Notes under the pieces: generated by a model
Database searches by the model: none
What the model was told of the DNA's origin: nothing
The model's input: the letters and a program-made list of their open reading frames with translations, nothing else
Made by a program: the position numbers and the translations under genes
Part shown: one piece after another, positions 19,822-33,256 of the stretch
Layout of the letters: each line of letters opens with the position of its first letter
How positions within the stretch are numbered: position 1 is the stretch's first letter
NCBI GenBank assembly: GCA_030629775.1
Contig: DAOVOJ010000005.1
Coordinates: 1 to 33,256, forward strand
Origin: Candidatus Moraniibacteriota bacterium
GTDB lineage: Bacteria; Patescibacteriota; Minisyncoccia; JAHIHE01; DAOVOJ01
Direction: 5' to 3'
Length of the DNA: 33,256 nucleotides

Positions 19822-22800
19822 ATGAAAAATTTAAAAAGGAAAATCAAAAAAAGCGCTCAGAAAATAATGGCGTCTTTTTTAATGGTGACGATGATCATGT
19901 GGACGCTGGGCGCGTCATTGATGGTGTCTGTTCCGGTAACTCATGCTGCCGGAACTGTTCTGGTTGGATATGGACCGCCGAACGGACAGACTGATTTTCC
20001 AACAATGGCGCCGCTGGACTTTATGTTCAACGCCGCTTTAAATTCTACAGTAATTGATAATTTAAATACCGAGAGCAATCCTTTTAGCATCTCGCCGTCG
20101 GTAAGCGGGGAGTGGCATTATTTTGAAGAAACTTGGGGAACTAATACTATGTACCGTGTTTCGTTTATGGCTTTAGACGGATTAGCTTTGAGCACCGAGT
20201 ATACTATCTCTGTGGATCTTTCCGGTGTTACTGGCGCCGATAGCGGCGCGGCAACCATGACTCTTGAAGGAGAACAGAGTGCTTTAACTTTTACTGATCC
20301 GGTTTATTCATTTATTGTTACTACCGGCGATACGGAAATGCAGGGCGGGATTTATCCGCCAATGGCTTTTGCCGGTTATCCAACTGAGGGAATGCAGCAG
20401 GTCTCTCCGAGCATCACTTCCATCACGATTAATTTTGACCGCGACAATATGGACGCGACCACTTTTACTACTAGCAATATTTATTTAGAAAAAATTGGAA
20501 CTGGAGTAGTAAGCGGCACAACAGTCAGTCCGACTTCGGGGACTAGCGGGGTGGCGACTATTCAAGGTTTTGCTTTAGCCGCCAGCAGCCAGTATCGGGT
20601 TTATGTGACCAGAGATGTAAAAGATTCTAATGGACAGGCTTTGTCGGGAATGCCGTTGCCGGACGGTAGTGCCGGACCATATTCTTATGATTTTTATACG
20701 GCTGCTTCAGGGACAACTGTTACTGCCAATTATATCGGTTCAAATTTAGATCAATATTTAAGCGGTGGCAGCATTACCGGTGTTCCAACGGGAACGGTGA
20801 TCACAGCCACTTTTGATAATTCGCTTGATCCGACAACAGTTACGACGGATAATGTTCAATTAAATGCTGGCGCGGTAACTGGCAGCGTTAGTTACGACGC
20901 GCAGGGCAATATGATCCGTTTTATTCCAAACGCTATATTATCCGCCGCCACATCGCACACTTTTGCTATTTCAACCAGCGTGAAAAGCGTGACTGGGACA
21001 GCCATTACGGCGGTTAGTAAAACATTCACAACTGGCGCCGCGGATGAAACAAAACCGCAGGTGGTTTTTTCCGAGGGCGATAACTATGGTTTATTTGTTG
21101 AATTTAACGAACCGTTAAATTCAACCACGGCGGAAAATAAATCATATTATACTTTAAAAACAAGAAGCGATAGTGGCACGGCTTGGGGTGATGTGACGGC
21201 GGTAAGTTTGACGGGCGCCAACATCCGCTACCAACCGGATTATAATGAAGTGATGATAGACGGTTTGACTTTGACTCCCGGTCAGGAATTCCAAATAACC
21301 GTTTCAACAGGCGTTACCGATATTGCCGGTAATATTATGGATAATACCGCCAATGTCAGAACCGGCTATATTATGGACGCCAGTTTGTTTTTCGGCGGAG
21401 GGGGAATGTTTACGATGGATGATATGGGGATGGAAGATTTTGATATGTTTGATATGGGAATGAAACCGATTGGCGTTTGGCCGATGAGCAATATGGTCAG
21501 CGCTACCACTAAATATTTTATTGACATTCCAATCGCGACGGCTATTCCAGCCGATGGAATAATTGAATTGAAATTTCCCACTGGATTTAATGTAACTTCC
21601 GTGGTTAAAGACGCGCAAAGCCCGATGAACGATGATTTTAACGGCGGCAATACCGGCACGATAACTTTTGCCGGCACTGATCCGACTGGCACTACGAGTA
21701 ACGGCGTAAATAACGACGGCTTGGGCGTTATTGGCGAGCGAACGGTAGTTATTAAATTAAGCTCCGCTGTTCCCGCGAATGATTTTCTGGCTATTGATTT
21801 AGATAACATTCAAAATACCAGTGTTCCAAAAGGATTTGAAACGAATGGCTATCAAGTGGAAATAAAAACAAAAACTTCCGCCGGGATTTTACTGGAAGCG
21901 TTGTATTCAATGCCCTTCTTTATTACGGGCGGCGGCACTAATACTATTTCCGGTTCGGTTCATGGCGTGGCTTCCGGACATGATGGCACGATTCAAGTAT
22001 TTTTAGGTTCTCCGATGACCGGTCCGATGCAGCAAGATGTGGCAATTACCGGTACGGGCGACGCCACCGCGGACGGTACTTACAGTTTCGGCAATTTGCC
22101 GGACGGAGAATATTTCTTATTTACCGATCCGTCAATTGCAATCGGCGCCGGCTCCTATTTCGGTAATCCAATGCCGGAATCTATTTGGATAAGCGGCGGC
22201 GCTACGGAAACCAAAGATACCGCTCTAGTGGCGGAAAATTCCGGCAGTGTTTATACTTTAGCGGTAACATTGGTTGGTGATTTTACCACTGGCGTCGTAA
22301 ATGACAGTGTAGATATATTTGCCGGATCGCCGACCGGTTTTCGCGTAAAAACAGTAACGCCCGGCAATACAGCCGGTGTGACTTACAATTTATATTTGCC
22401 GGACGGCGACTGGATGGTTGGAGTTGGTCCGGCGATGCCGACCGGTCCGATGGCGGGTCCTCCGCCAATGCCGGACTGGATGCCGCCGATGCCGACCAAT
22501 GTTAAAATTTCCAGTGGCGGAACAGCGTCTTCTGTTGGCGCTACATTAACAATTAATTTAGGAACTCAAGCAAGCACGACCGTGGCGGGATATGTCAAAG
22601 ACGGTTCAAACAATGCTATTGCTAACGCCGAAGTATTCGCTTATCAACCGGTGGGCGGGTTTGGCGGCGCGCATACTAAAACCGCCAGCGACGGTTCGTT
22701 CACTTTGAAAGTTCCAGTTTTGGGAATATATAAAATCGGCGCTTTTATGCCGGGTCTTCCAAGTTCGCAGGAAATAGTTCAGGATGTTCAGAGCAATGTG

Positions 22801-25530
22801 ACGGGATTAATTATCGTGATGCAAAAACCGTCTTACACAATTTCCGGACAAGTGTCTAATGCCAGTTCTCAGGCGGTGCCTTACGCGCCGGTCTGGGCTT
22901 ACCAATCAGACGGCTGGGCGCATGCGGACACGATGACGGACGCTGCCGGAAATTATATTTTATATGTTGATAATGGCAATTGGACAGTGGAAGCGGACGC
23001 GCCGGGAGTCGGCTGGATGGAATACGGTTCAGCAATTGCGATCAGCGGCGCTTCGCAAGCGGGGATTAATCTCAGTCCTTCCGCGGATGTGACTTGGTAC
23101 ACAATTAAAGGAGAGGTAACAATCAATGGAAGCAAGCAAGCCTTTATGCCGATCAGAGCCGTGTCGTATGACGCTAATGGAAATTATTTAGGACGCGAAT
23201 ATAGTGGTATGACCGATTCTGTTGGCGTGTACACAATTTCCGCGCCGGCCGGAACTTATCGCGTGGATATTTGGACACCGGAATATGGCGAGGTTGAATT
23301 GCTTACAGACGGAGTGTCTGGCAGTCCCGCCAATCTTTCAGTATCTGGCAATGTGACGGGAGCGGATATTACGATAGCAGCGTTAGCTTTAAAAACAGCA
23401 ACCGTTCAATTTGATAATAAAGAGGATTATTCAAACAAAGAAGCGTTTATCAAAATTGACGAAGTTGCTATTAGCGGAGGCGTGGCTATTCCGACAGGCT
23501 ATCATCGGTCAATCAGGGTTAATGATATTTCTGGCAGCGATCAAGAAATAAAATTAGAAGATGGCGATTATTTCTTCTTTGTTGATGTGCCGGGAACGGG
23601 CAATTTTGTTCCGAAATCTACCAGCCCCGCTTTTGACGGAACAAAGGGATGCATTACTATTGATGGAACTGAGGATACTATTCAATTTGCTTTGCCTGAT
23701 TTGGATGACACTAGCGCGGCGATTACTATTTCCGGCGTTGTCAGCGGACCATCGTCCGGACAGCAAGATGCTTGGGTTTGGGTAGGAAATCCCGAAACAG
23801 GATTCCATACCGGCGAACAGGCCAACGCGACTACCGGCGCCTATTCTCTGACTGTTCCTATTTTATCGTCAGGCAACTATATGGTTGGCGCTGATAAACC
23901 GGAATACATTTCTGGCGAACCTGTATCTAATGCTGGAACTATTGACGCTACTATTAATTTTAGCTTAACAGCCCAGAGCAATACTATTTCCGGTAAGCTG
24001 TTCGTTGATACTAACGGCAACGGCGTCTATAATTCCGGAGAAGAAATTCAAAATGGCTGGGTTTACGCCGAGGATAGCAGCGGCGCTAAATCGCATGCTC
24101 CGGTTGACGGAACGGGCGCTTATTCACTTGGCGTAACGAGCGGCAATTGGAAAGTATACGGCGCGGCTAGCGGATATTTGGAACTTCAATATTCCGAGAA
24201 TGATATCCCGACAGTTATTGATTCAAGCAGCAATCCGACAGGCAAAAATATTAAATTAACGGTTGATTCCAACTGGACTAATAAAACCAAATCTTCGCCG
24301 ATGACGCCGGCCTCTGGCGGGGTAATTGACGATACGGCGCAAGACATTGTTACTGGCAAAGCGTCCGGCACGGGTTTGAAAATAACTGTGCCGCCAAACG
24401 CTTTAGGAAGTTCAAATTCCAGCGGTAATGTAAGCTCTGCGGAAACAGCCGCTGTTTCCGCGACTAATTCTCATAAACCTTTTGCCGGCAAGGGAAAGAA
24501 TGTTACCACCGCCGACAATTCAGGACAGCCGATAACTAATCTTGATAATTATGTGGACATGGAGATGGTATTGTATAAAGCTGATGTTGACGCAGAAGAG
24601 GTGGCTGGAGGAATTAAGGATTTCTCTAAACTGAAAACTATGAAGATGGGCTATTGGGACGACACTTTGAATGAGTGGGTAAGTCTGCCGACTACTAAAA
24701 CCGCCTATCATAAGAAAACGACTGATAAAGAATGGACAATGTATAATGGCACAACCACTCAAACCGGATTTGAAAAATTTATTGACGACGCTTTAGCCGT
24801 TCCGCTGACATTTACCGGCGGCGGCGTGGATTATGACGATTACAAATTAGTATTCAAGGCGTCCACAAATCACTTTTCCGTTTTTGCTCTTGGAACTTCT
24901 CCGGACGGCGTGAAGCCAAGCGCGCCGGCAAATGTGGCGCAAAGCGCGGGTAGTGGAACTTCGGTCGCTTTGACCTGGGACGCGGTAACTACAAACGCGG
25001 ACGCTACTCCTATTACGGATCTATTTGGCTACGCGGTTTATCGTTCCACGGACGGTACGACTTATTCTCAAATTAGCGCGTCCGCTATTACAGCCGGAAC
25101 TGAAACTTACACAGACTCTACAACTACCGCATTCACTTCTTATTATTATAAAGTAACCGCTGGCGACGATGATAATTTAGAATCAGCGTATTCATCCGCT
25201 TTACAGATATGTTCTACCTCGGCAGTTTCTAATGGAACAGTAGCCGCTGATTGTTCTATCACTTGCGACTCCGGTTATGCCGTAAGCGGCAACAGTTGCG
25301 CCGCTTCTGGCGGAGGAGGCGGAGGAGCGGTTTCTTCTGTCCCTTCATCTGCTACCGGACAAGTGGCGGCAACTCCTTCTATGGGAGGAATAGTTAGCAA
25401 AACCAATTCTGACGGCAGTAGCGCGAAAGTAGTATTGCCGGCAGGCGCTTTGTTAGAGAACGCCACTATAACAGTTTCTCCAAAAAACCAAAACTTCAAT
25501 CACCGCTTCTCGTCCGGTTTCATCCGGTAA
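19822..25530 (+). CDS. Very large secreted multi-domain surface protein, 5' part of a frameshifted gene
   Basis: The 1902 codons begin with a clear signal peptide: basic KNLKRKIKKSAQK, a hydrophobic core, and VTHAA near 40. AAGAAGGA about eight bases upstream is one of the few good ribosome-binding sites here. Three or four SbsA/Big_5-type Ig-like domains (about 45-520) are followed by a Met/Asp-rich stretch near 527-550, then at least five carboxypeptidase-regulatory-like beta-sandwich modules beginning TISGxV or similar (about 705-1470) with DGTYSF/DGSFTL turns. A module with YWDDTLNEWVSLP follows near 1610, then an FN3 domain (about 1693-1790), a short Cys-containing segment and a Gly-rich linker. 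The last 16 codons are out of frame: the A-run at 25482-25487 has one base too many relative to the frame that continues at 25488-26224. Probably an adhesin or cell-envelope protein of about 2130 residues. Confidence 0.88.
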   Translation: MKNLKRKIKKSAQKIMASFLMVTMIMWTLGASLMVSVPVTHAAGTVLVGYGPPNGQTDFPTMAPLDFMFNAALNSTVIDNLNTESNPFSISPSVSGEWHYFEETWGTNTMYRVSFMALDGLALSTEYTISVDLSGVTGADSGAATMTLEGEQSALTFTDPVYSFIVTTGDTEMQGGIYPPMAFAGYPTEGMQQVSPSITSITINFDRDNMDATTFTTSNIYLEKIGTGVVSGTTVSPTSGTSGVATIQGFALAASSQYRVYVTRDVKDSNGQALSGMPLPDGSAGPYSYDFYTAASGTTVTANYIGSNLDQYLSGGSITGVPTGTVITATFDNSLDPTTVTTDNVQLNAGAVTGSVSYDAQGNMIRFIPNAILSAATSHTFAISTSVKSVTGTAITAVSKTFTTGAADETKPQVVFSEGDNYGLFVEFNEPLNSTTAENKSYYTLKTRSDSGTAWGDVTAVSLTGANIRYQPDYNEVMIDGLTLTPGQEFQITVSTGVTDIAGNIMDNTANVRTGYIMDASLFFGGGGMFTMDDMGMEDFDMFDMGMKPIGVWPMSNMVSATTKYFIDIPIATAIPADGIIELKFPTGFNVTSVVKDAQSPMNDDFNGGNTGTITFAGTDPTGTTSNGVNNDGLGVIGERTVVIKLSSAVPANDFLAIDLDNIQNTSVPKGFETNGYQVEIKTKTSAGILLEALYSMPFFITGGGTNTISGSVHGVASGHDGTIQVFLGSPMTGPMQQDVAITGTGDATADGTYSFGNLPDGEYFLFTDPSIAIGAGSYFGNPMPESIWISGGATETKDTALVAENSGSVYTLAVTLVGDFTTGVVNDSVDIFAGSPTGFRVKTVTPGNTAGVTYNLYLPDGDWMVGVGPAMPTGPMAGPPPMPDWMPPMPTNVKISSGGTASSVGATLTINLGTQASTTVAGYVKDGSNNAIANAEVFAYQPVGGFGGAHTKTASDGSFTLKVPVLGIYKIGAFMPGLPSSQEIVQDVQSNVTGLIIVMQKPSYTISGQVSNASSQAVPYAPVWAYQSDGWAHADTMTDAAGNYILYVDNGNWTVEADAPGVGWMEYGSAIAISGASQAGINLSPSADVTWYTIKGEVTINGSKQAFMPIRAVSYDANGNYLGREYSGMTDSVGVYTISAPAGTYRVDIWTPEYGEVELLTDGVSGSPANLSVSGNVTGADITIAALALKTATVQFDNKEDYSNKEAFIKIDEVAISGGVAIPTGYHRSIRVNDISGSDQEIKLEDGDYFFFVDVPGTGNFVPKSTSPAFDGTKGCITIDGTEDTIQFALPDLDDTSAAITISGVVSGPSSGQQDAWVWVGNPETGFHTGEQANATTGAYSLTVPILSSGNYMVGADKPEYISGEPVSNAGTIDATINFSLTAQSNTISGKLFVDTNGNGVYNSGEEIQNGWVYAEDSSGAKSHAPVDGTGAYSLGVTSGNWKVYGAASGYLELQYSENDIPTVIDSSSNPTGKNIKLTVDSNWTNKTKSSPMTPASGGVIDDTAQDIVTGKASGTGLKITVPPNALGSSNSSGNVSSAETAAVSATNSHKPFAGKGKNVTTADNSGQPITNLDNYVDMEMVLYKADVDAEEVAGGIKDFSKLKTMKMGYWDDTLNEWVSLPTTKTAYHKKTTDKEWTMYNGTTTQTGFEKFIDDALAVPLTFTGGGVDYDDYKLVFKASTNHFSVFALGTSPDGVKPSAPANVAQSAGSGTSVALTWDAVTTNADATPITDLFGYAVYRSTDGTTYSQISASAITAGTETYTDSTTTAFTSYYYKVTAGDDDNLESAYSSALQICSTSAVSNGTVAADCSITCDSGYAVSGNSCAASGGGGGGAVSSVPSSATGQVAATPSMGGIVSKTNSDGSSAKVVLPAGALLENATITVSPKNQNFNHRFSSGFIR

Positions 25531-26224
25531 AAGCGTGGCAGGAAATTATGTCTACAGCTTTACCGCCGTTGCGGGGACGACGGCCGTAAGTTCATTTAGT
25601 AAAACGGTGACTGTTACTTTTAAATATGCTAATGAGCAAATAGCCGGATTAAACGAAGGATCGTTGCAGATTCACTATTGGGATGATACAACAAACGTGT
25701 GGGTTGCTTTGGCAGACAGCGCGGTTAATACCGCTACGAATACTGTTACCGCCACGACAACTCACTTCACTTATTTTGCAATCTTAGGAACGCAAACGAG
25801 TGAAGGCGAAGGCGGTGAAACCACCACCGAAGTCATAGACGGCGATATTATCCAATGCGAGACTTCAGATAATCCTTTCGCTGTTTACATCGTCAAAGTT
25901 GTCGGAGACACCAAATACATCCGACACATTGTTTCTCTTGAGATCTTCAACTACTACGAACATCTTGATTGGAATAATCTGAAACAGGTTGATTCTCTGA
26001 CCAACTATTCATTATCCGGCTGGGCAAGAGTAAACACCGGTCCAAACAACACTCCCGGACCAACCGACAAGGTTTATGAAATTAACGGCGACCAGTCCAA
26101 ACACTGGATCAATATGACCGCTGAACAATTCCTAACCCACGGAGGATCTGATTCTGCAATCTACACAGTCAATCAAGGAGAATTAAATCTTTACACGACT
26201 GGTCCTGATGTGATGAGTTTGTAG
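25488..26224 (+). CDS. 3' part of the frameshifted surface protein, with CPR-type C-terminal domain
   Basis: The reading frame continues the upstream protein after a one-base shift: removing one A from AAAAAA (25482-25487) joins ENATITVSPK to TKTSITASRPVSSGKSVAGN without loss. The first standard start in this frame is GTG at 25535, but it has no ribosome-binding site and lies inside a domain, so this is not an independent gene. It contains a YWDDTTNVWVAL module, a near copy of the YWDDTLNEWVSL module upstream. The C-terminal domain (DNPFAVYIVKVVGDTKYIRH, FNYYEHLDWNNLKQV, HWINMTAEQFLTHGG) I recall from the ends of many Parcubacteria surface proteins. Its role may be anchoring, but that is inference. 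Confidence 0.85.
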
Positions 26225-26393: not shown

Positions 26394-29189
26394 ATGAACA
26401 AACACAAAGCCAAAGAAAACATTTCAGAATTGGTTAAAAAATATAATAGAATTGCCAAAGCTGGAAAAGTTAAATCTTATAACGAGGCTCAAACACGCAT
26501 TGAATTTATTGAGCCGCTTTTTGGTTTTCTCGGGTGGGATATGCGGAACGCGAATAATGATAATGAAGTTACGACTGAGGAAACAATTTCCAGGGGCAGA
26601 GTTGATCTGGCGTTTCGGATCAATGGAATTCCAAAGTTTTTTCTGGAAGCGAAATCATTGAAATCAGATTTGGATATTGAAAGCTACGCGCGGCAAGCGA
26701 TTAATTATTCATGGAACAAGGGAATAAATTGGGCGATGCTGACTGATTTTGAAGGCATTAAGGTTTTTAACGCCAATGCCAAATCAAAATCTTTGAGAGA
26801 TAAAATGGTGTTTGAAATTCCTTACGACGAATACACCAGCGACTTTGAACGGTTATGGCTTCTTTCCAGAGAAAGTTTTGAAAAAAACGCTCTTGATATT
26901 TACGCGGAAAAACATGGTAAAAAATCCAAAAGCCTTACTGTGAATGAAAAACTTTTTGGCGATTTAAAACAAGCTAGAGAAATTCTGACAAAAAGTTTTA
27001 ATAACTGGAAAGAATATTGGGATAAGAATAAAAATATTGACCAAGAGACGCTGGACGAAGGAGTGCAAAGAATTATAGACCGCCTTGTGTTTATCAGAGT
27101 TTTGGAAGATAAAAAATTAGAACCGCCGATCCTTAGACCGATTATTCGCGAGTGGGACAAAGACCGCAGCAATAACAAGCAATTATTTCAAATGCTTACG
27201 GAAAAATTCCGCGAATTGGACGACATTTATAATTCCAGCCTTTTTACCAAGCATGCCTGCGAGGATTGGGAGGAATATGATGACGCCACAAAAAAAGCGA
27301 TTGAGTTGCTTTATGGAAACGATGTCTACGAATACAATTTCAAAGAAATTCCGGCGGATATTTTGGGCGGAGTGTATGAAAGCTATCTCGGCTATATTGC
27401 TCAAAAGCCGATTAAAGCAGGCGTAGGGATGGGTTTGAAACCCATCCCTGCTAAAGATAAAAAGGCTTTAAAAATAAAATCTCGCAAGAAAAGGAAAGAG
27501 CAGGGGATTTATTACACGCCTAATTTTATCGTGGATTATATTATCAAAAACACTTTGGGAAAGAAACTGGAAGAAATTGAAAATATAAACGATCTGAAAC
27601 AAATTAAAATTCTAGACCCCGCCTGCGGTTCCGGGTCTTTTCTCATCAAAGCGCTGGAAACGGTCAATGAAAAATACAAAGACTTTAATAATCCCGGCGA
27701 CCAATACACCAAAAGTGGAATTCTCTTAGGAAATATTTACGGCGTTGACCTTGACCCGCAAGCGGTGGAGCTGGCGAAACTCAATTTGCTCATCGGCGCG
27801 CTGGATCAAAAAGCCAAACTTCCAAATTTAACCGACAATATCCGTGTGGGCAATTCCTTGATTTCCGGTTCGGAAAAAGAGCTTAAAAAATATTTCGGCA
27901 AAAACTGGCGCGACAAAAAACCGTTTAATTGGGAAGAGGAATTTCTCTTCTGTCATTCCCGTGAAAACGGGAATCCAGAAAGCGGGTTTGATGTGATTAT
28001 TGGGAACCCGCCGTATGTTAGAAATAGAGATTTAGATGAAAAAGATAAAAATTTATTTAATGAAAAGTATTATTCTGCTCATGGTCAATATGATATTTAC
28101 CAGTTGTTTTTTGAACAATCAATAAAACTTTTAAAGGAAAATGGTTTTTTGGGATTTATTACTTCCAATAAATATGCCATTGCTGATTATGGAAAAAAGC
28201 TAAGAGAATTTATTTTGGATAATTGCAAAATAGTTTCTATTATTGATGTTTCCAGTCTTCAAGTTTTCAAAGATGCTTCTACTTATCCGTATATTATTAT
28301 TTTACAGAAAACAAAAAACAATTCTGGAAATATTATAAAAGGATATAAAGCGAGCAATGAATTAGATTTTAGTGATAATAAAGTTTTGATAAATCAAGAC
28401 GATATTAAAAACAGTCAAACTAAAAACTTTGTGATTAAGAAAGAGTTAAAATTTTTGAAAGATGTTGAGAAGAGGTCTGTAAAACTAGGCGAGATTGCGA
28501 CAATTAAAGAGACAATCCATACAGGCAATATTAGGAATAAATTGATAGTTGATAAAAAGATTGATGAAACTTGTAAAAAATTATTGGCTGGTAAAGATTG
28601 CCATCGTTATATGTTTAAATGGAATGGCAAATATGTTCGGTATGATCAAGGTTTGATTGATAAGAGTAAGAAAGAATATGCTAATCTTTGTGGTAAAGAA
28701 TATTTTGAAAAACCGAAAATCTTATTGAGGGACATTTCAAAATATCCCGAAGCAGTTCTTGATAAAGAAAAATATTATAGTGTCAATACACTTTATTCCA
28801 TACAGTCAAAAGAAAAGGATTACAGTTTGTATTATTTGATGGCGCTTATAAATTCCAAACTAATATCTTTCTATTTTCACCAAAAATTTGAAAATGCTCA
28901 TATAAGCGGTGGATTTTTAAGATTCAAGAAAATATACACTTCTCAAATCCCAATTTACAAAATAGACTTTTCTGACAAAAAAGAAAAAGCCAAATATAAC
29001 AATTTGGCAAAATTAGCAGATAAAATGTTAAATCTCAACAAACAACTCCAATCAACCCCCGAAAATTCTGATAAGTGGAATGGGATTAAGAAGGAAATTG
29101 AGAAAGTTGATGGGGAGATTAATAAAAATGTTTTTGAGTTGTATGGGTTGGGAGAGGAAGAGATTGAGATAATTAAGGGAAAAAATTAA
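26394..29189 (+). CDS. Type IIG-like restriction enzyme: fused nuclease and N6-adenine methyltransferase
   Basis: The 931-residue protein has an N-terminal HsdR_N-like PD-(D/E)XK nuclease (about 22-90: RIEFIEPLFGFLGW, RGRVDLAF, FFLEAKS), a helical connector, then an Eco57I/TaqI-type methyltransferase. GIYYTPNFIVDYIIKNTLG and DPACGSGSFLIKALE (408 onward) are motif I with the SAM site; VDLDPQAVELAKLNLLIGAL follows; FDVIIGNPPYV (about 532-542) is motif IV with the catalytic NPPY. The C-terminal ~390 residues, ending SGGFLRFKKIYTSQIPIY, should hold target recognition. One such protein would both methylate and cleave at its site. Two palindromic repeats are read in frame: MGLKPIP near 346 and CHSRENGNPE near 520, the second just before motif IV. 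Base composition drops in G+C after about 28020, which suggests an exchanged recognition half. Confidence 0.9.
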   Translation: MNKHKAKENISELVKKYNRIAKAGKVKSYNEAQTRIEFIEPLFGFLGWDMRNANNDNEVTTEETISRGRVDLAFRINGIPKFFLEAKSLKSDLDIESYARQAINYSWNKGINWAMLTDFEGIKVFNANAKSKSLRDKMVFEIPYDEYTSDFERLWLLSRESFEKNALDIYAEKHGKKSKSLTVNEKLFGDLKQAREILTKSFNNWKEYWDKNKNIDQETLDEGVQRIIDRLVFIRVLEDKKLEPPILRPIIREWDKDRSNNKQLFQMLTEKFRELDDIYNSSLFTKHACEDWEEYDDATKKAIELLYGNDVYEYNFKEIPADILGGVYESYLGYIAQKPIKAGVGMGLKPIPAKDKKALKIKSRKKRKEQGIYYTPNFIVDYIIKNTLGKKLEEIENINDLKQIKILDPACGSGSFLIKALETVNEKYKDFNNPGDQYTKSGILLGNIYGVDLDPQAVELAKLNLLIGALDQKAKLPNLTDNIRVGNSLISGSEKELKKYFGKNWRDKKPFNWEEEFLFCHSRENGNPESGFDVIIGNPPYVRNRDLDEKDKNLFNEKYYSAHGQYDIYQLFFEQSIKLLKENGFLGFITSNKYAIADYGKKLREFILDNCKIVSIIDVSSLQVFKDASTYPYIIILQKTKNNSGNIIKGYKASNELDFSDNKVLINQDDIKNSQTKNFVIKKELKFLKDVEKRSVKLGEIATIKETIHTGNIRNKLIVDKKIDETCKKLLAGKDCHRYMFKWNGKYVRYDQGLIDKSKKEYANLCGKEYFEKPKILLRDISKYPEAVLDKEKYYSVNTLYSIQSKEKDYSLYYLMALINSKLISFYFHQKFENAHISGGFLRFKKIYTSQIPIYKIDFSDKKEKAKYNNLAKLADKMLNLNKQLQSTPENSDKWNGIKKEIEKVDGEINKNVFELYGLGEEEIEIIKGKN
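27425..27449. repeat. In-frame palindrome, family D, inside the type IIG-like gene
   Basis: AGGGATGGGTTT and AAACCCATCCCT are perfect 12-bp arms around one central G. It is the same palindrome as in comF (14027-14047), here two bases longer on each side, read as G-M-G-L-K-P-I-P. Confidence 0.92.
27948..27980. repeat. In-frame ATTCCC-N8-GGGAAT palindrome (dRS3-like)
   Basis: ATTCCCGTGAAAACGGGAAT (27955-27974) is flanked by TTCTG (27948-27952) and CAGAA (27976-27980), which extend the palindrome. The core fits ATTCCC-N8-GGGAAT, the form of the neisserial dRS3 repeat. It is read in frame as CHSRENGNPE between WEEEF and GFDVIIGNPPY. Confidence 0.88.
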
Positions 29190-29191
29190 AG

Positions 29192-29220
29192 TTGAGACTA
29201 TTTCTAAAAAATGTTATAAT
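29192..29220 (+). promoter_or_regulatory. Promoter of the methyltransferase-nuclease operon
   Basis: TTGAGA (29192-29197), a 17-base spacer and a perfect TATAAT (29215-29220) lie three bases after the previous stop codon. The leader would be about 25 bases, made almost only of A and T, with no Shine-Dalgarno site before ATG 29252. Confidence 0.75.
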
Positions 29221-29251: not shown

Positions 29252-31888
29252 ATGAATATTCAACAAATTATAAAAAGGCAAGGATGGGAAGAAAGTAAGC
29301 AAAATAGTGGTATTTACGAACTTGAAAAAGATGTTGATACGATAAAAATATATCTTGAAGATAGAAAAGACAATATTGAAGAGCTTAAAGATAAACTCTG
29401 GAATGCTTATTATTCTAGAGTTTTAATATACAAAAATTTTTCAAATGATTATATAATTTGGAGCAATAGTCAAAGTCCAAAAAGTGAAGGTGTAGATTTT
29501 AAAGAAAAGCCGTTTGATGAAAAAATTTCTCCAATTGAATATTGGGATGAATACATATCTAAAACTTCTAAAAATGCTGTTGATAAAAAATTAAAAGAAA
29601 GTATCTTAACTGTTTTTAGAAGATTAAATAAAGAACATCCAAAAAGAAAAGATGATTTAATATCTATTATATTGGCGTGTACTTTTGTTCGTTTCTTGGA
29701 AGACAGAAATTTAACTGATATCAAAACAGAACTTGTAAATGCTTTGGAGTCAAAAAAAGAGACCGTTGCTTTATTTAATGAATATGATGAATTGCACAAC
29801 GGAATTTTATTTAAAAATAATGTTTTATCTGTTCTTGATAATAACTCTTGTAAAATATTAAAATCTTTTTTAGAGGATGATTTATTTCCTCAAAAAAGTT
29901 TTTTCCGTTTTGATTTTAGATATATACCGATTGAATTGATAAGTAATATTTACGAAGAATTATTGACTGAAAAATTAGGTGCAGAGGAAAAGAAGGATCA
30001 GGGTATTGCATATACTCCTCCAAGGCTGGCTAATTATGTAACCAAGCAGGCGTTTAAACAATTAGATAAAAAATTTGATGGTCAAGATTTTTCAAATATA
30101 AAAATAGGAGATTTATCCGTTGGCTCTGGAATTTTTTTGGTTTTATCATTTAGGGAACTTCTAAAAAGATTAGACAGCAAAAAAAATAATAAAAAAACTT
30201 TCAAAGAAAAGAAAGATATTTTAGAAAATTCTTTTTATGGTATGGACTCAGATGAATCGGCGATTAAAATAACGAAATTTAGTTTATATGTTGAGTTATT
30301 AGGGAATAGAAAGAATAACAAAAGGCTAGCTTCTAAAAATAAATTTCCTATTTTGGAAAATATAAAAAAGGATGATACTCTTAGATATCGTCAAAAAGAT
30401 AATTTTTTTGATTTAGTCATCGGTAATCCTCCGTGGAAATCTAGCGCCAAGAGTCTTAAGAAAATAGAAAAAAGCAAATTTAGTAAAGATATTGGCAATA
30501 AAGAATTAGCTCAAATGTTTGTTCATATTGGTTTGAAAAAATTAAAAAACAATGGAGTATTGACTATGGTTTTACCAACTGCAACTTTTTACAATGAAAC
30601 TTCTTTCAATTTTAGAAATTCAATATTAACAAATTCTATCGTTAAAGAATTCATTGATTTTTCTTCGATTAGAAGCCATATTTTTAAAAATAGCGTTGAG
30701 ACAAGCGTTGTTGTTATTGAGAAAAAAAATAACAATGGTTCTTATATTATACCCATGAGAAGAGTTACAAATAAAGCTGATTATTTATATTTTAATCATA
30801 TTTCTGGAAATACTAATAATATTGATAGCAGTTTTTTGCAATCAAGAAATGATTCTTGGCAAATTGCTATAAGGGGCGGAAATATGGCAGCGTTGTTAAT
30901 TGAAAGATTAAATAGAGATTATTCAAATATCAAAAATGTTGTTGGATCTAAAAACATTACTACAGGATATCAAGGAACTATTGGAGAAACTATTAGTAAC
31001 AACAAAAATAATCTTTTTTCAACACCTTTAATTTATGATTTGGATAAAAAATATTATTGCGTAAAATCAAAAAAAGCAAGAAAAAGTCATAAATTATTAA
31101 ATCAATCTTTTATAGATAGCGAATGTTTAATCATTTCTAAAATATATAAATTTAAAAAGACGAATCGTTTGCCAGTTTTATTAAAGCCGAAAGATTTTGC
31201 GTTCTATGAATATTTTATAGGGATTAATCCAGAGAAAAAAGATTTGTTACATTTTTTATCTGCTTTGCTTGTGTCAAGAATGGCTATGTTTTTTATTAAT
31301 ATGATTTGCACAACTATGCCATTATTTGCGAGTGAACAGAAAAATGCAAAACTTTGCAAGTCAGATTTTGTAAAAATACCTTTTCCTGAAGAATACTCAG
31401 AATATAAAAATATTATAAATATGGGTCATAAATTAATTGATAGTAAGTTTGATAATTTACAGAAAATTCAGGACGACATCGATAAAGAAATTGAGAGAAT
31501 ATATAAAATTAGTAATTTAGAAAAGAAAGTTATAAAACAATGGGAGGTAATGACAGAAAGAAAAAAGTTAAGTAGTAATAATTTAAAAAATTATCAATTC
31601 GGTTTTGAATATATGTTAGATAGTTATGATTTGCCAAAACCTAAAAAATGGAATCCGAACTCACGAATTATAAATGGGGTAGAAATTATTTCTTTTTCAG
31701 AGAATAATATATTGCCAGAAATAAATAGCAAGGTTAAAGAAAAAATAAGTAATATAATAATTGCTAAAAAAGAAATGGATTATGAATTTACAACAAGTAG
31801 CCGATGTGTAATTATGCGCAGAGAAAAAAGCAATTATGGATTCTTAACGGGGTTGTTGGACGCCGAGTTAATATTAAGTTCTTTATAA
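29252..31888 (+). CDS. Stand-alone N6-adenine DNA methyltransferase with target-recognition region
   Basis: The 878-residue protein has a SAM-dependent amino-methyltransferase core. GIAYTPPRLANYVTKQAFKQ precedes motif I DLSVGSGIFLVLSFRELL (about 287-304; the usual PACGSG is SVGSG). YGMDSDESAIKITKFSLYVE is the acidic SAM-contact region, and FDLVIGNPPWKSS (about 386-398) is motif IV with NPPW. The N-terminal 280 residues are mostly helical (FVRFLEDRNL) and show no PD-(D/E)XK motif, unlike the preceding gene. The C-terminal half is probably target recognition. Four bases after its stop starts a small PD-(D/E)XK protein, so methylation and cleavage seem split over two genes. Base composition is very AT-rich, with many AAA/ATA/TTA codons, suggesting recent transfer. 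The recognition site is unknown. Confidence 0.87.
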   Translation: MNIQQIIKRQGWEESKQNSGIYELEKDVDTIKIYLEDRKDNIEELKDKLWNAYYSRVLIYKNFSNDYIIWSNSQSPKSEGVDFKEKPFDEKISPIEYWDEYISKTSKNAVDKKLKESILTVFRRLNKEHPKRKDDLISIILACTFVRFLEDRNLTDIKTELVNALESKKETVALFNEYDELHNGILFKNNVLSVLDNNSCKILKSFLEDDLFPQKSFFRFDFRYIPIELISNIYEELLTEKLGAEEKKDQGIAYTPPRLANYVTKQAFKQLDKKFDGQDFSNIKIGDLSVGSGIFLVLSFRELLKRLDSKKNNKKTFKEKKDILENSFYGMDSDESAIKITKFSLYVELLGNRKNNKRLASKNKFPILENIKKDDTLRYRQKDNFFDLVIGNPPWKSSAKSLKKIEKSKFSKDIGNKELAQMFVHIGLKKLKNNGVLTMVLPTATFYNETSFNFRNSILTNSIVKEFIDFSSIRSHIFKNSVETSVVVIEKKNNNGSYIIPMRRVTNKADYLYFNHISGNTNNIDSSFLQSRNDSWQIAIRGGNMAALLIERLNRDYSNIKNVVGSKNITTGYQGTIGETISNNKNNLFSTPLIYDLDKKYYCVKSKKARKSHKLLNQSFIDSECLIISKIYKFKKTNRLPVLLKPKDFAFYEYFIGINPEKKDLLHFLSALLVSRMAMFFINMICTTMPLFASEQKNAKLCKSDFVKIPFPEEYSEYKNIINMGHKLIDSKFDNLQKIQDDIDKEIERIYKISNLEKKVIKQWEVMTERKKLSSNNLKNYQFGFEYMLDSYDLPKPKKWNPNSRIINGVEIISFSENNILPEINSKVKEKISNIIIAKKEMDYEFTTSSRCVIMRREKSNYGFLTGLLDAELILSSL

Positions 31889-31892
31889 TTTT

Positions 31893-32492
31893 ATGATAAA
31901 ACAAGATTGGAAAAAATTCAGAAAAATCTTTTTTAGAAAGTGTTGTGAATTGATTTGCGAATTTAAACCCGTTAACAAACCTAAATATTTAACTGACAAA
32001 AAATATTCAAAACCAGAAGATTGGATAACTTGTGATTATGTGGAGGGGATTACAAAAATGGATATTAGAAGGGGAGTGAGAGTAGAAAGTGGAAAACAAA
32101 GGTGTGGAAATAATGTCACACTTCAGGAACCTGATATAACCTTTTCAACATTAGACAATAGAGTTAAGACTTTTTTTGAATGTAAAATACTTGGTGATAA
32201 TTCAAAATATACTGGTGAAGATGGTATGCAAAGATTTATTACTGAAAAATATAGGTTCGATAAAATGCCTTTTTATGGAATGCTTGGTTATGTTAAAGAT
32301 GATTCGGCAACAGAGAAACAAAAAAAATTACAAAAAAGCATAAAGAATAAAAAGAATGATTTAAATTTGACTAATCAAGAAACTTTAGAAAATTCTGACT
32401 CGCAAGTAATATTTAAAACAAAACACAAGACTATCAATAAAAGATGTAATGTGAACATAGAAATTACCCATATCTTACATTCTTGGGAGTAG
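31893..32492 (+). CDS. Putative PD-(D/E)XK restriction nuclease partner
   Basis: The 199-residue protein carries a plausible nuclease core: E79-P80-D81-ITFS, then FFE96-C97-K98, that is PD-x14-ExK on adjacent strands, as in restriction enzymes. Upstream, RRGVRVESGKQRCGNN looks like a conserved basic segment, and GEDGMQRFITEKYRFDKMPF with YGMLGYVKDD follows the catalytic strand. I recall similar uncharacterised proteins beside DNA methyltransferases but cannot check. The gene starts four bases after the methyltransferase stop and ends eight bases before the next small gene, so one operon. The C-terminal part is Lys/Asn-rich. Inferred role: the cleaving half of a two-gene restriction-modification system. 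Alternatives are a nicking enzyme or a methylation-dependent nuclease. Confidence 0.65.
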   Translation: MIKQDWKKFRKIFFRKCCELICEFKPVNKPKYLTDKKYSKPEDWITCDYVEGITKMDIRRGVRVESGKQRCGNNVTLQEPDITFSTLDNRVKTFFECKILGDNSKYTGEDGMQRFITEKYRFDKMPFYGMLGYVKDDSATEKQKKLQKSIKNKKNDLNLTNQETLENSDSQVIFKTKHKTINKRCNVNIEITHILHSWE

Positions 32493-32500
32493 ATTAAATT

Positions 32501-32731
32501 ATGTTTAAAATAAAAAGAAATTCACGCAGGGAAAGAATATTAGTACCTGTTAAATATTACGGTTTTGTGGCTATTATAAAGTTTAAAGTAAAAATAAAAA
32601 TTATTGTAAAAGAGATAGAAAGCGGACAGCCATTTTTTTGGAGCGTCATCCCTTTTTGGAAAACTAAAAAAGATTCTATTACCGAACAAACAAAAAAAGT
32701 CTTCCATGATGGAGACTTAGAAAAACAATAA
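32501..32731 (+). CDS. Small basic protein of unknown function in the restriction operon
   Basis: The 76-residue, Lys/Arg-rich protein follows the putative nuclease gene by eight bases on the same strand. An N-terminal basic region (FKIKRNSRRER) leads into alternating hydrophobic strands (VAIIKFKVKIKIIVKEI), then SGQPFFWSVIPFWKTKK and a short acidic tail. I do not recognise the family. The aromatic FFWSVIPFW segment and compact layout suggest a real folded protein. Being third in the operon, it may be an accessory or regulatory subunit. No helix-turn-helix or antitoxin motif is visible. Confidence 0.6.
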   Translation: MFKIKRNSRRERILVPVKYYGFVAIIKFKVKIKIIVKEIESGQPFFWSVIPFWKTKKDSITEQTKKVFHDGDLEKQ

Positions 32732-32950: not shown

Positions 32951-33256
32951 ATGGAAAAACGACTGATCGTTGGGTTGCATAAAAATTTTGAAGATTGCGC
33001 GCGTGAAAAAGACGGGGTGGAATTTTGGTATGCAAGAGAAGTGCAAGGACTTTTAGGATATGGAAAATGGGAGAATTTTGAAAATGTCATAAAGAAAGCA
33101 AAGATAGCCTGCGAAACCGCTAAACAAAAGGATTTTGATCATTTTGCCGGCGTCAAGAAGATGATCCCAATGCCCATAGAGGCAAGCGATAAATGTAAAA
33201 ATCAAATTCTAAAAAATAAAAAACACGCGTGTTGCGGTAGGGGTTCAAAATTTTGA
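32951..33256 (+). CDS. BRO-N / DinD-like protein, truncated
   Basis: Residues 1-86 match the BRO-N domain of DinD-type (DNA-damage-inducible protein D) proteins: GVEFWYAREVQGLLGYGKWE, NFENVIKKAKIACETAKQ, DHFAGVKKMIPMP. Family members usually continue with a segment ending in RYACYLIAQN and are near 280 residues long. Here the similarity stops after EAS (about 33186); the remaining ~15 codons are Lys/Asn-rich, then HACCGRGSKF, and a TGA comes at the very last base. Those last codons are encoded by one arm of a palindrome, so the gene was probably cut by an inserted repeat. The other two frames of the final 75 bases do not restore the family sequence. A role near the restriction genes in DNA-damage or phage response is only guilt by association. 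Confidence 0.7.
   Translation: MEKRLIVGLHKNFEDCAREKDGVEFWYAREVQGLLGYGKWENFENVIKKAKIACETAKQKDFDHFAGVKKMIPMPIEASDKCKNQILKNKKHACCGRGSKF
33222..33256. repeat. Left arm of a palindromic element cut by the window edge
   Basis: AACACGCGTGTT (33222-33233) is a perfect palindrome, followed by GCGGTAGGGG and the palindromic TCAAAATTTTGA (33245-33256). If the latter is the centre of symmetry, the other arm lies beyond the edge. The GTAGGG...TTCAAA arrangement resembles family D. Confidence 0.55.

Follow-up and report, generated by a model that had tools for sequence, protein, structure and literature searches.

A large adenine methyltransferase gene and a separate PD-(D/E)XK-type nuclease gene form a recurrent pair and a probable two-gene restriction-modification system

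The window analysed here is one entire contig of 33,256 nucleotides (DAOVOJ010000005.1) from a Candidatus Moraniibacteriota assembly of 829 kb in 73 contigs. On its forward strand it carries a gene for a large DNA methyltransferase (29252-31888, 878 aa), followed after 4 bp by a gene for a small PD-(D/E)XK-type protein (31893-32492, 199 aa) and after another 8 bp by a 76-aa ORF (32501-32731). An initial annotation made from the DNA letters had given these three ORFs, their coordinates, and both gaps, all of which we reproduced, and had read them as a split restriction system with an undescribed third component. That reading stands for the methyltransferase and the separate PD-(D/E)XK protein, whose recurrent pairing and conserved catalytic pattern strongly support their acting as one restriction unit, but not for the third gene. 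We think it probable that the two genes make up a restriction-modification system in which the nuclease is on a separate chain and would be brought to unmethylated sites by the methyltransferase in the manner of a type IIG enzyme.

The 878-aa product belongs to the gamma-class N6-adenine DNA methyltransferases of the Eco57I/MmeI type, scoring above the curated cut-offs for both Eco57I (E = 5.6e-20) and MmeI_Mtase (E = 1.1e-8) and carrying both diagnostic motifs. The SAM-binding motif I reads DLSVGSGIFL (residues 287-296, 30110-30139), with D287, G291, and G293 invariant in the methyltransferase alignment, and the catalytic motif IV is the NPPW already noticed in the initial annotation (residues 392-395, 30425-30436), with N392, P393, and P394 invariant. 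A low-confidence AlphaFold model, of which only the core was used, matches CamA, BrxX/PglX, M.BseCI, BsaXI, and DrdV. Two further regions of the protein may bear on how it works with a nuclease. The N-terminal region (residues 1-96, 29252-29539) aligns by hhalign in register with the nuclease domains of type IIG enzymes, without their catalytic pair. Since the score of 16.5 lies within the shuffle range (up to 18.5), we only infer that this region is probably the dead relic of a nuclease domain. The initial description of a methyltransferase with no visible nuclease domain therefore holds for active domains, with the reservation that such a relic may be present. The C-terminal region (residues 736-878, 31457-31885) is 76% identical to that of a related locus in a Nealsonbacteria MAG (L036), has profile matches, and ends throughout the family in approximately the pattern IKPxxxRxWxxxxAxxDA, making it a candidate docking site.

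Direct sequence searches with the 199-aa product gave nothing usable in Pfam, PADLOC, NCBIfam, PHROGs, or PDB. Its family nevertheless shows a clear conservation pattern: across an alignment of 19 divergent members, D81, E96, K98, Y106, G111, F115, and H193 are invariant, and E42, R114, and I189 are almost so (E42 in at least 90%). The PD-x14-ExK signature proposed initially corresponds to P80-D81...E96-C97-K98 (catalytic core at 32133-32186) and is more than a chance occurrence, because the catalytic D81, E96, and K98 are kept in all 19 divergent relatives. Together with the upstream acidic E42, this supplies the conserved D...ExK arrangement of a PD-(D/E)XK nuclease, the other conserved residues being specific to the family. 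Profile comparison, a check suggested along with the initial annotation, points the same way. Aligned by hhalign to the N-terminal nuclease domains (HSDR_N) of nine type IIG enzymes, the one encoded in the window among them, the nuclease profile scores 34-37 (E about 1e-4, probability 55-64%), above the maxima of 19.9 from 100 shuffles and 23.7 from 200 shuffles, and the catalytic residues fall in register, PD with RVD and ExK with the EAK of the type IIG domains. An AlphaFold model built from 5 sequences is too poor (mean pLDDT 43) to support the expected alpha-beta-beta-beta-alpha-beta fold, and its best Foldseek E-value of 0.069 carries no meaning. Scanning the 19 members with PADLOC returned two single borderline matches, to the PD_DExK model (E 0.0011) and to ShosT (E 0.0033). 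We accordingly speak of a predicted metal-dependent PD-(D/E)XK nuclease, in both fold and activity.

The evidence for a functional unit comes above all from gene neighbourhoods. In all 22 loci inspected (the window, L005, L026-L034, L036-L039, L047-L052, and L073), the nuclease gene lies directly behind a methyltransferase gene of the same family on the same strand, so that conservation of the neighbourhood, which had been proposed as a check, is borne out for this obligate pair. The hosts are Patescibacteria, Spirochaetes, proteobacterial plasmids, and one prophage. Fifteen of the loci were found by nuclease queries alone, and every one of the 15 has the methyltransferase partner. The two genes are separated by -44 to +8 bp in the 17 loci measured, and over 17 loci the distances among nucleases correlate with those among methyltransferase cores at r = 0.94, a value reached in 0 of 9999 permutations. 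The pair thus has the adjacent, co-inherited methyltransferase and nuclease genes of a two-gene type II system.

On plasmids, tblastn with the 199-aa protein gave one weak match, in Burkholderia glumae, behind an N-6 methylase (pairwise BLASTP E 5e-10). Plasmid relatives of the methyltransferase are followed by "hypothetical proteins" of 236-253 aa that form one family with the 199-aa protein, and nuclease queries brought in further plasmid copies from Agrobacterium, Allorhizobium, Pseudomonas, a Cereibacter-like host, and pRSB223. Searches with nuclease queries also found L036, where the nuclease is 58% identical over its full length, L037 in a same-order relative (on the same contig as L007 of genome G522), and L038 in a Spirochaete. 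The prophage copy (L039), lying between tail genes and an integrase, was found with a query from the plasmid subfamily; scans of Viral_contigs with nuclease queries centred on the window gave no match, nor did any phage genome in a separate collection match the family. Among 296 genomes of the Spirochaete phylum, the nuclease profile recovered seven loci: L038 and six new ones, the latter from four genomes. In each, the methyltransferase gene directly precedes the nuclease. These seven were recovered again, along with one broken remnant, by a profile of the methyltransferase C-terminal region, whose E-values at the seven are inflated because it contained members from them. When 380 genomes of the phylum to which the window belongs were sampled, the nuclease turned up in the window only, and within this phylum the pair, including L036 and L037, looks horizontally acquired. 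Three weak single-protein matches in the phylum (L002-L004) were discarded as noise, being other genes that the profile did not recover.

In four loci (L048 and, on plasmids, L005, L030, and L073), two consecutive ORFs, with break points that differ from locus to locus, make up the methyltransferase ahead of an intact nuclease gene; these may be either frameshifts or real subunit splits. Damage to one partner is seen in two loci, with the methyltransferase split in L048 and the nuclease broken in L052. In the latter, a stop codon interrupts the nuclease while the methyltransferase is intact, the order in which a restriction system would be expected to decay. The plasmid pairs lie near SIR2, TIR, AbiE, HNH, and restriction genes, neighbours with which a defence role would fit, and the window pair sits beside a type IIG gene.

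Comparison with L036 suggests how labour may be divided between the two proteins. The methyltransferases are 76% identical over residues 97-554 and again over 736-878, and only 36% identical over the intervening residues 555-735 (30914-31456). Such a drop between well-conserved flanks indicates that the target-recognition region has been replaced. The nuclease meanwhile remains 60% identical to that of L036, roughly what the divergence of the methyltransferase cores predicts from other pairs. This combination, for which the window and L036 as one clear close pair are the main basis, suggests that the methyltransferase sets the specificity and that the nuclease is a separable cutter. The same comparison bears on an orthodox type II arrangement, in which the 199-aa nuclease would recognise and cut the site by itself and the methyltransferase would do no more than protect the host. 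The genes are separate, 200-240 aa is a usual size for a specific type II nuclease, and residues 51-75 of the nuclease are just 36% identical to L036, so it could also carry a changing recognition part. However, when specific type II nucleases differ in their sites, their sequences have usually drifted too far apart for a relationship to be recognised. Here the nucleases that go with methyltransferases of very different recognition regions still form one recognisable family, and the replacement between the window and L036 left the nuclease no more diverged than the methyltransferase core would predict. We therefore hold an orthodox type II system to be rather unlikely, though it deserves serious consideration.

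A further alternative is that the 199-aa product is an accessory or regulatory protein with a nuclease fold, the methyltransferase serving in epigenetic control or in a non-cleaving, BREX-like defence. The methyltransferase model, at its low confidence, does resemble not only restriction enzymes but also CamA and BrxX/PglX, and cleavage by the pair is so far a prediction from sequence. Against this, the catalytic residues are invariant in 19 members, and no BREX-type PglZ, ATPase, or helicase is listed beside the pairs inspected. We judge this alternative improbable.

Under the reading we prefer, the 878-aa protein would use its target-recognition region to recognise a DNA site, in which it would methylate an adenine on host DNA. 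The 199-aa protein, translated just behind it, would be the cutting subunit, and by itself would most likely show scant sequence specificity or none. Binding of the methyltransferase would then bring the nuclease into a complex at unmethylated sites, perhaps through the N- or C-terminal region of the methyltransferase, and incoming phage or plasmid DNA would presumably be restricted. Recruited in this way, the nuclease would stand in for the nuclease domain of a type IIG enzyme, only on a chain of its own. A bolder version, to which we lean somewhat less than evenly, is that the pairs constitute a distinct and hitherto undescribed class of split type IIG systems spread over several bacterial phyla, with a dead nuclease relic in the methyltransferase and a non-specific PD-(D/E)XK subunit directed by it. 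If that subunit cuts where the methyltransferase directs, a change in the recognition region alone would reprogram methylation and cleavage together.

The pair shares features with several known systems. Fused type IIG enzymes (R, M, and S on one chain, as in Eco57I, MmeI, BpuSI, DrdV, and the product of the window's own gene at 26394-29189) likewise have a gamma adenine methyltransferase and a C-terminal recognition region subject to replacement, and their N-terminal PD-(D/E)XK domain is related to the pair's nuclease. They differ in that the nuclease and methyltransferase are active on one polypeptide, whereas in all 22 loci inspected the nuclease is a separate chain encoded downstream, and the paired methyltransferase has an N-terminus without catalytic residues and one more conserved region at its C-terminal end. 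Orthodox type II systems in which a REase accompanies a monomeric gamma methyltransferase also have separate R and M genes, and adenine methylation would be expected of both. Most of the paired methyltransferases, however, at 880-1000 aa, exceed the typical size of a stand-alone gamma methyltransferase, and the nuclease matches no REase model of PADLOC and is probably not independently specific. BREX PglX/BrxX and DISARM DrmMI belong to the same methyltransferase superfamily, and BrxX structures are among the best fold matches of the low-confidence model, but the pair lacks PglZ, ATPase, or helicase partners: neither PglZ/ATPase nor the DrmA helicase is annotated beside the plasmid pairs, and the methyltransferase scores far below the BREX cut-offs. 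The helicase-bearing R subunit and separate S subunit of type I systems have no counterpart here either, as no helicase was found in the window operon or with the pairs at L036-L038. Restriction activity is divided among polypeptides in the type IIB enzyme BsaXI and the type IIS enzyme BtsI as well; in BsaXI, however, it is the specificity subunit that has a chain to itself, and the two chains of BtsI are both nuclease subunits, whereas the separate chain of the pair is the nuclease alone.

We found no description of this pair in the literature searched. The portion of a 2013 review of type I relatives consulted here (PMC3874165) lists fused type IIG and separate-M+S forms and contains no such methyltransferase with a separate nuclease chain. 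Because REBASE lay outside our scope and its putative R genes may include members, we call the nuclease family undescribed in the sources searched. No Pfam model matches any member, and the records seen annotate them only as "hypothetical protein" and once as "Fis family transcriptional regulator". Such annotation probably lets the pairs on many plasmids and across several phyla pass for orphan methyltransferases, thereby distorting surveys of how restriction limits the transfer of plasmids and phages. Should the nuclease depend on the methyltransferase for targeting, the pair would be a naturally modular restriction enzyme, with a single recognition region governing methylation and cleavage alike.

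The 76-aa ORF had been taken for the third component, and its position 8 bp behind the nuclease gene on the same strand invites that view. Instead, it retains only the C-terminal part (~72 aa) of a protein from a family of the window's phylum whose members are ~160 aa long. The protein itself gave nothing beyond noise in Pfam, PADLOC, or NCBIfam, but it has matches in 27 of the 380 sampled phylum genomes (the window's own and 26 others; best identity 58%), and these are nearly always the C-terminal half of an open frame of ~160 aa. The missing front half was found neither in the window nor elsewhere in the assembly. Moreover, the loci fetched around other pairs contain no copy of the ORF, and at L036 an unrelated 283-aa gene occupies its place. 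When the three genes are held to the co-occurrence by which the initial annotation proposed to judge them, the methyltransferase and nuclease keep company and the small gene does not. We reject it as a third subunit, as a 5'-truncated copy of a family unlinked to the pair, and give the three-gene system almost no credence. The ORF was plausibly cut by insertion of the cassette. Its full-length family (examples at L063-L071) is widespread in the phylum, with Pfam LPD3 barely reached by the best of the full-length relatives.

Upstream of the pair, the gene at 26394-29189 is, as first annotated, a fused nuclease-methyltransferase, that is, a type IIG enzyme with matches to HSDR_N, N6_Mtase, Eco57I, and TaqI_C. 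The 62-bp gap between it and the methyltransferase gene holds the best sigma-70-like site of the region, TTGAGA-17-TATAAT with a TG before the -10 (an extended -10; 29192-29220, forward strand), which is a consensus match only. Such sites are no commoner in the region than in shuffled sequence, and we found no terminator between the two genes; the independent promotion ascribed to the operon is thus no more than plausible. Between ~28.2 kb and ~32.7 kb, GC is about 0.23-0.32, compared with 0.33-0.44 before that stretch.

The type IIG gene itself is chimeric. As far as residue ~540, its product is about 93% identical to that of L011, a same-order relative. Over most of the recognition half beyond, identity is about 20-40%, and GC drops there to 0.27 from about 0.38. 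Here, too, the recognition part seems to have been replaced. Within its coding region (27900-28000), an in-frame FCHSRENGNPESG just upstream of NPPY resembles an inserted palindromic repeat. At the other end of the window, a DinD-like gene (32951-33256; NCBIfam DinD E 9e-23; PADLOC PDC-S13) is cut by the contig end after 101 of ~288 residues, and its final 72 bases match two other contigs only in short, partial stretches. Upstream of the type IIG gene, the stretch 19822-26224 holds a gene for a very large secreted repeat protein of 1902 aa and, 4 bp behind it, a 229-aa frame of like character; the two are possibly one interrupted gene.
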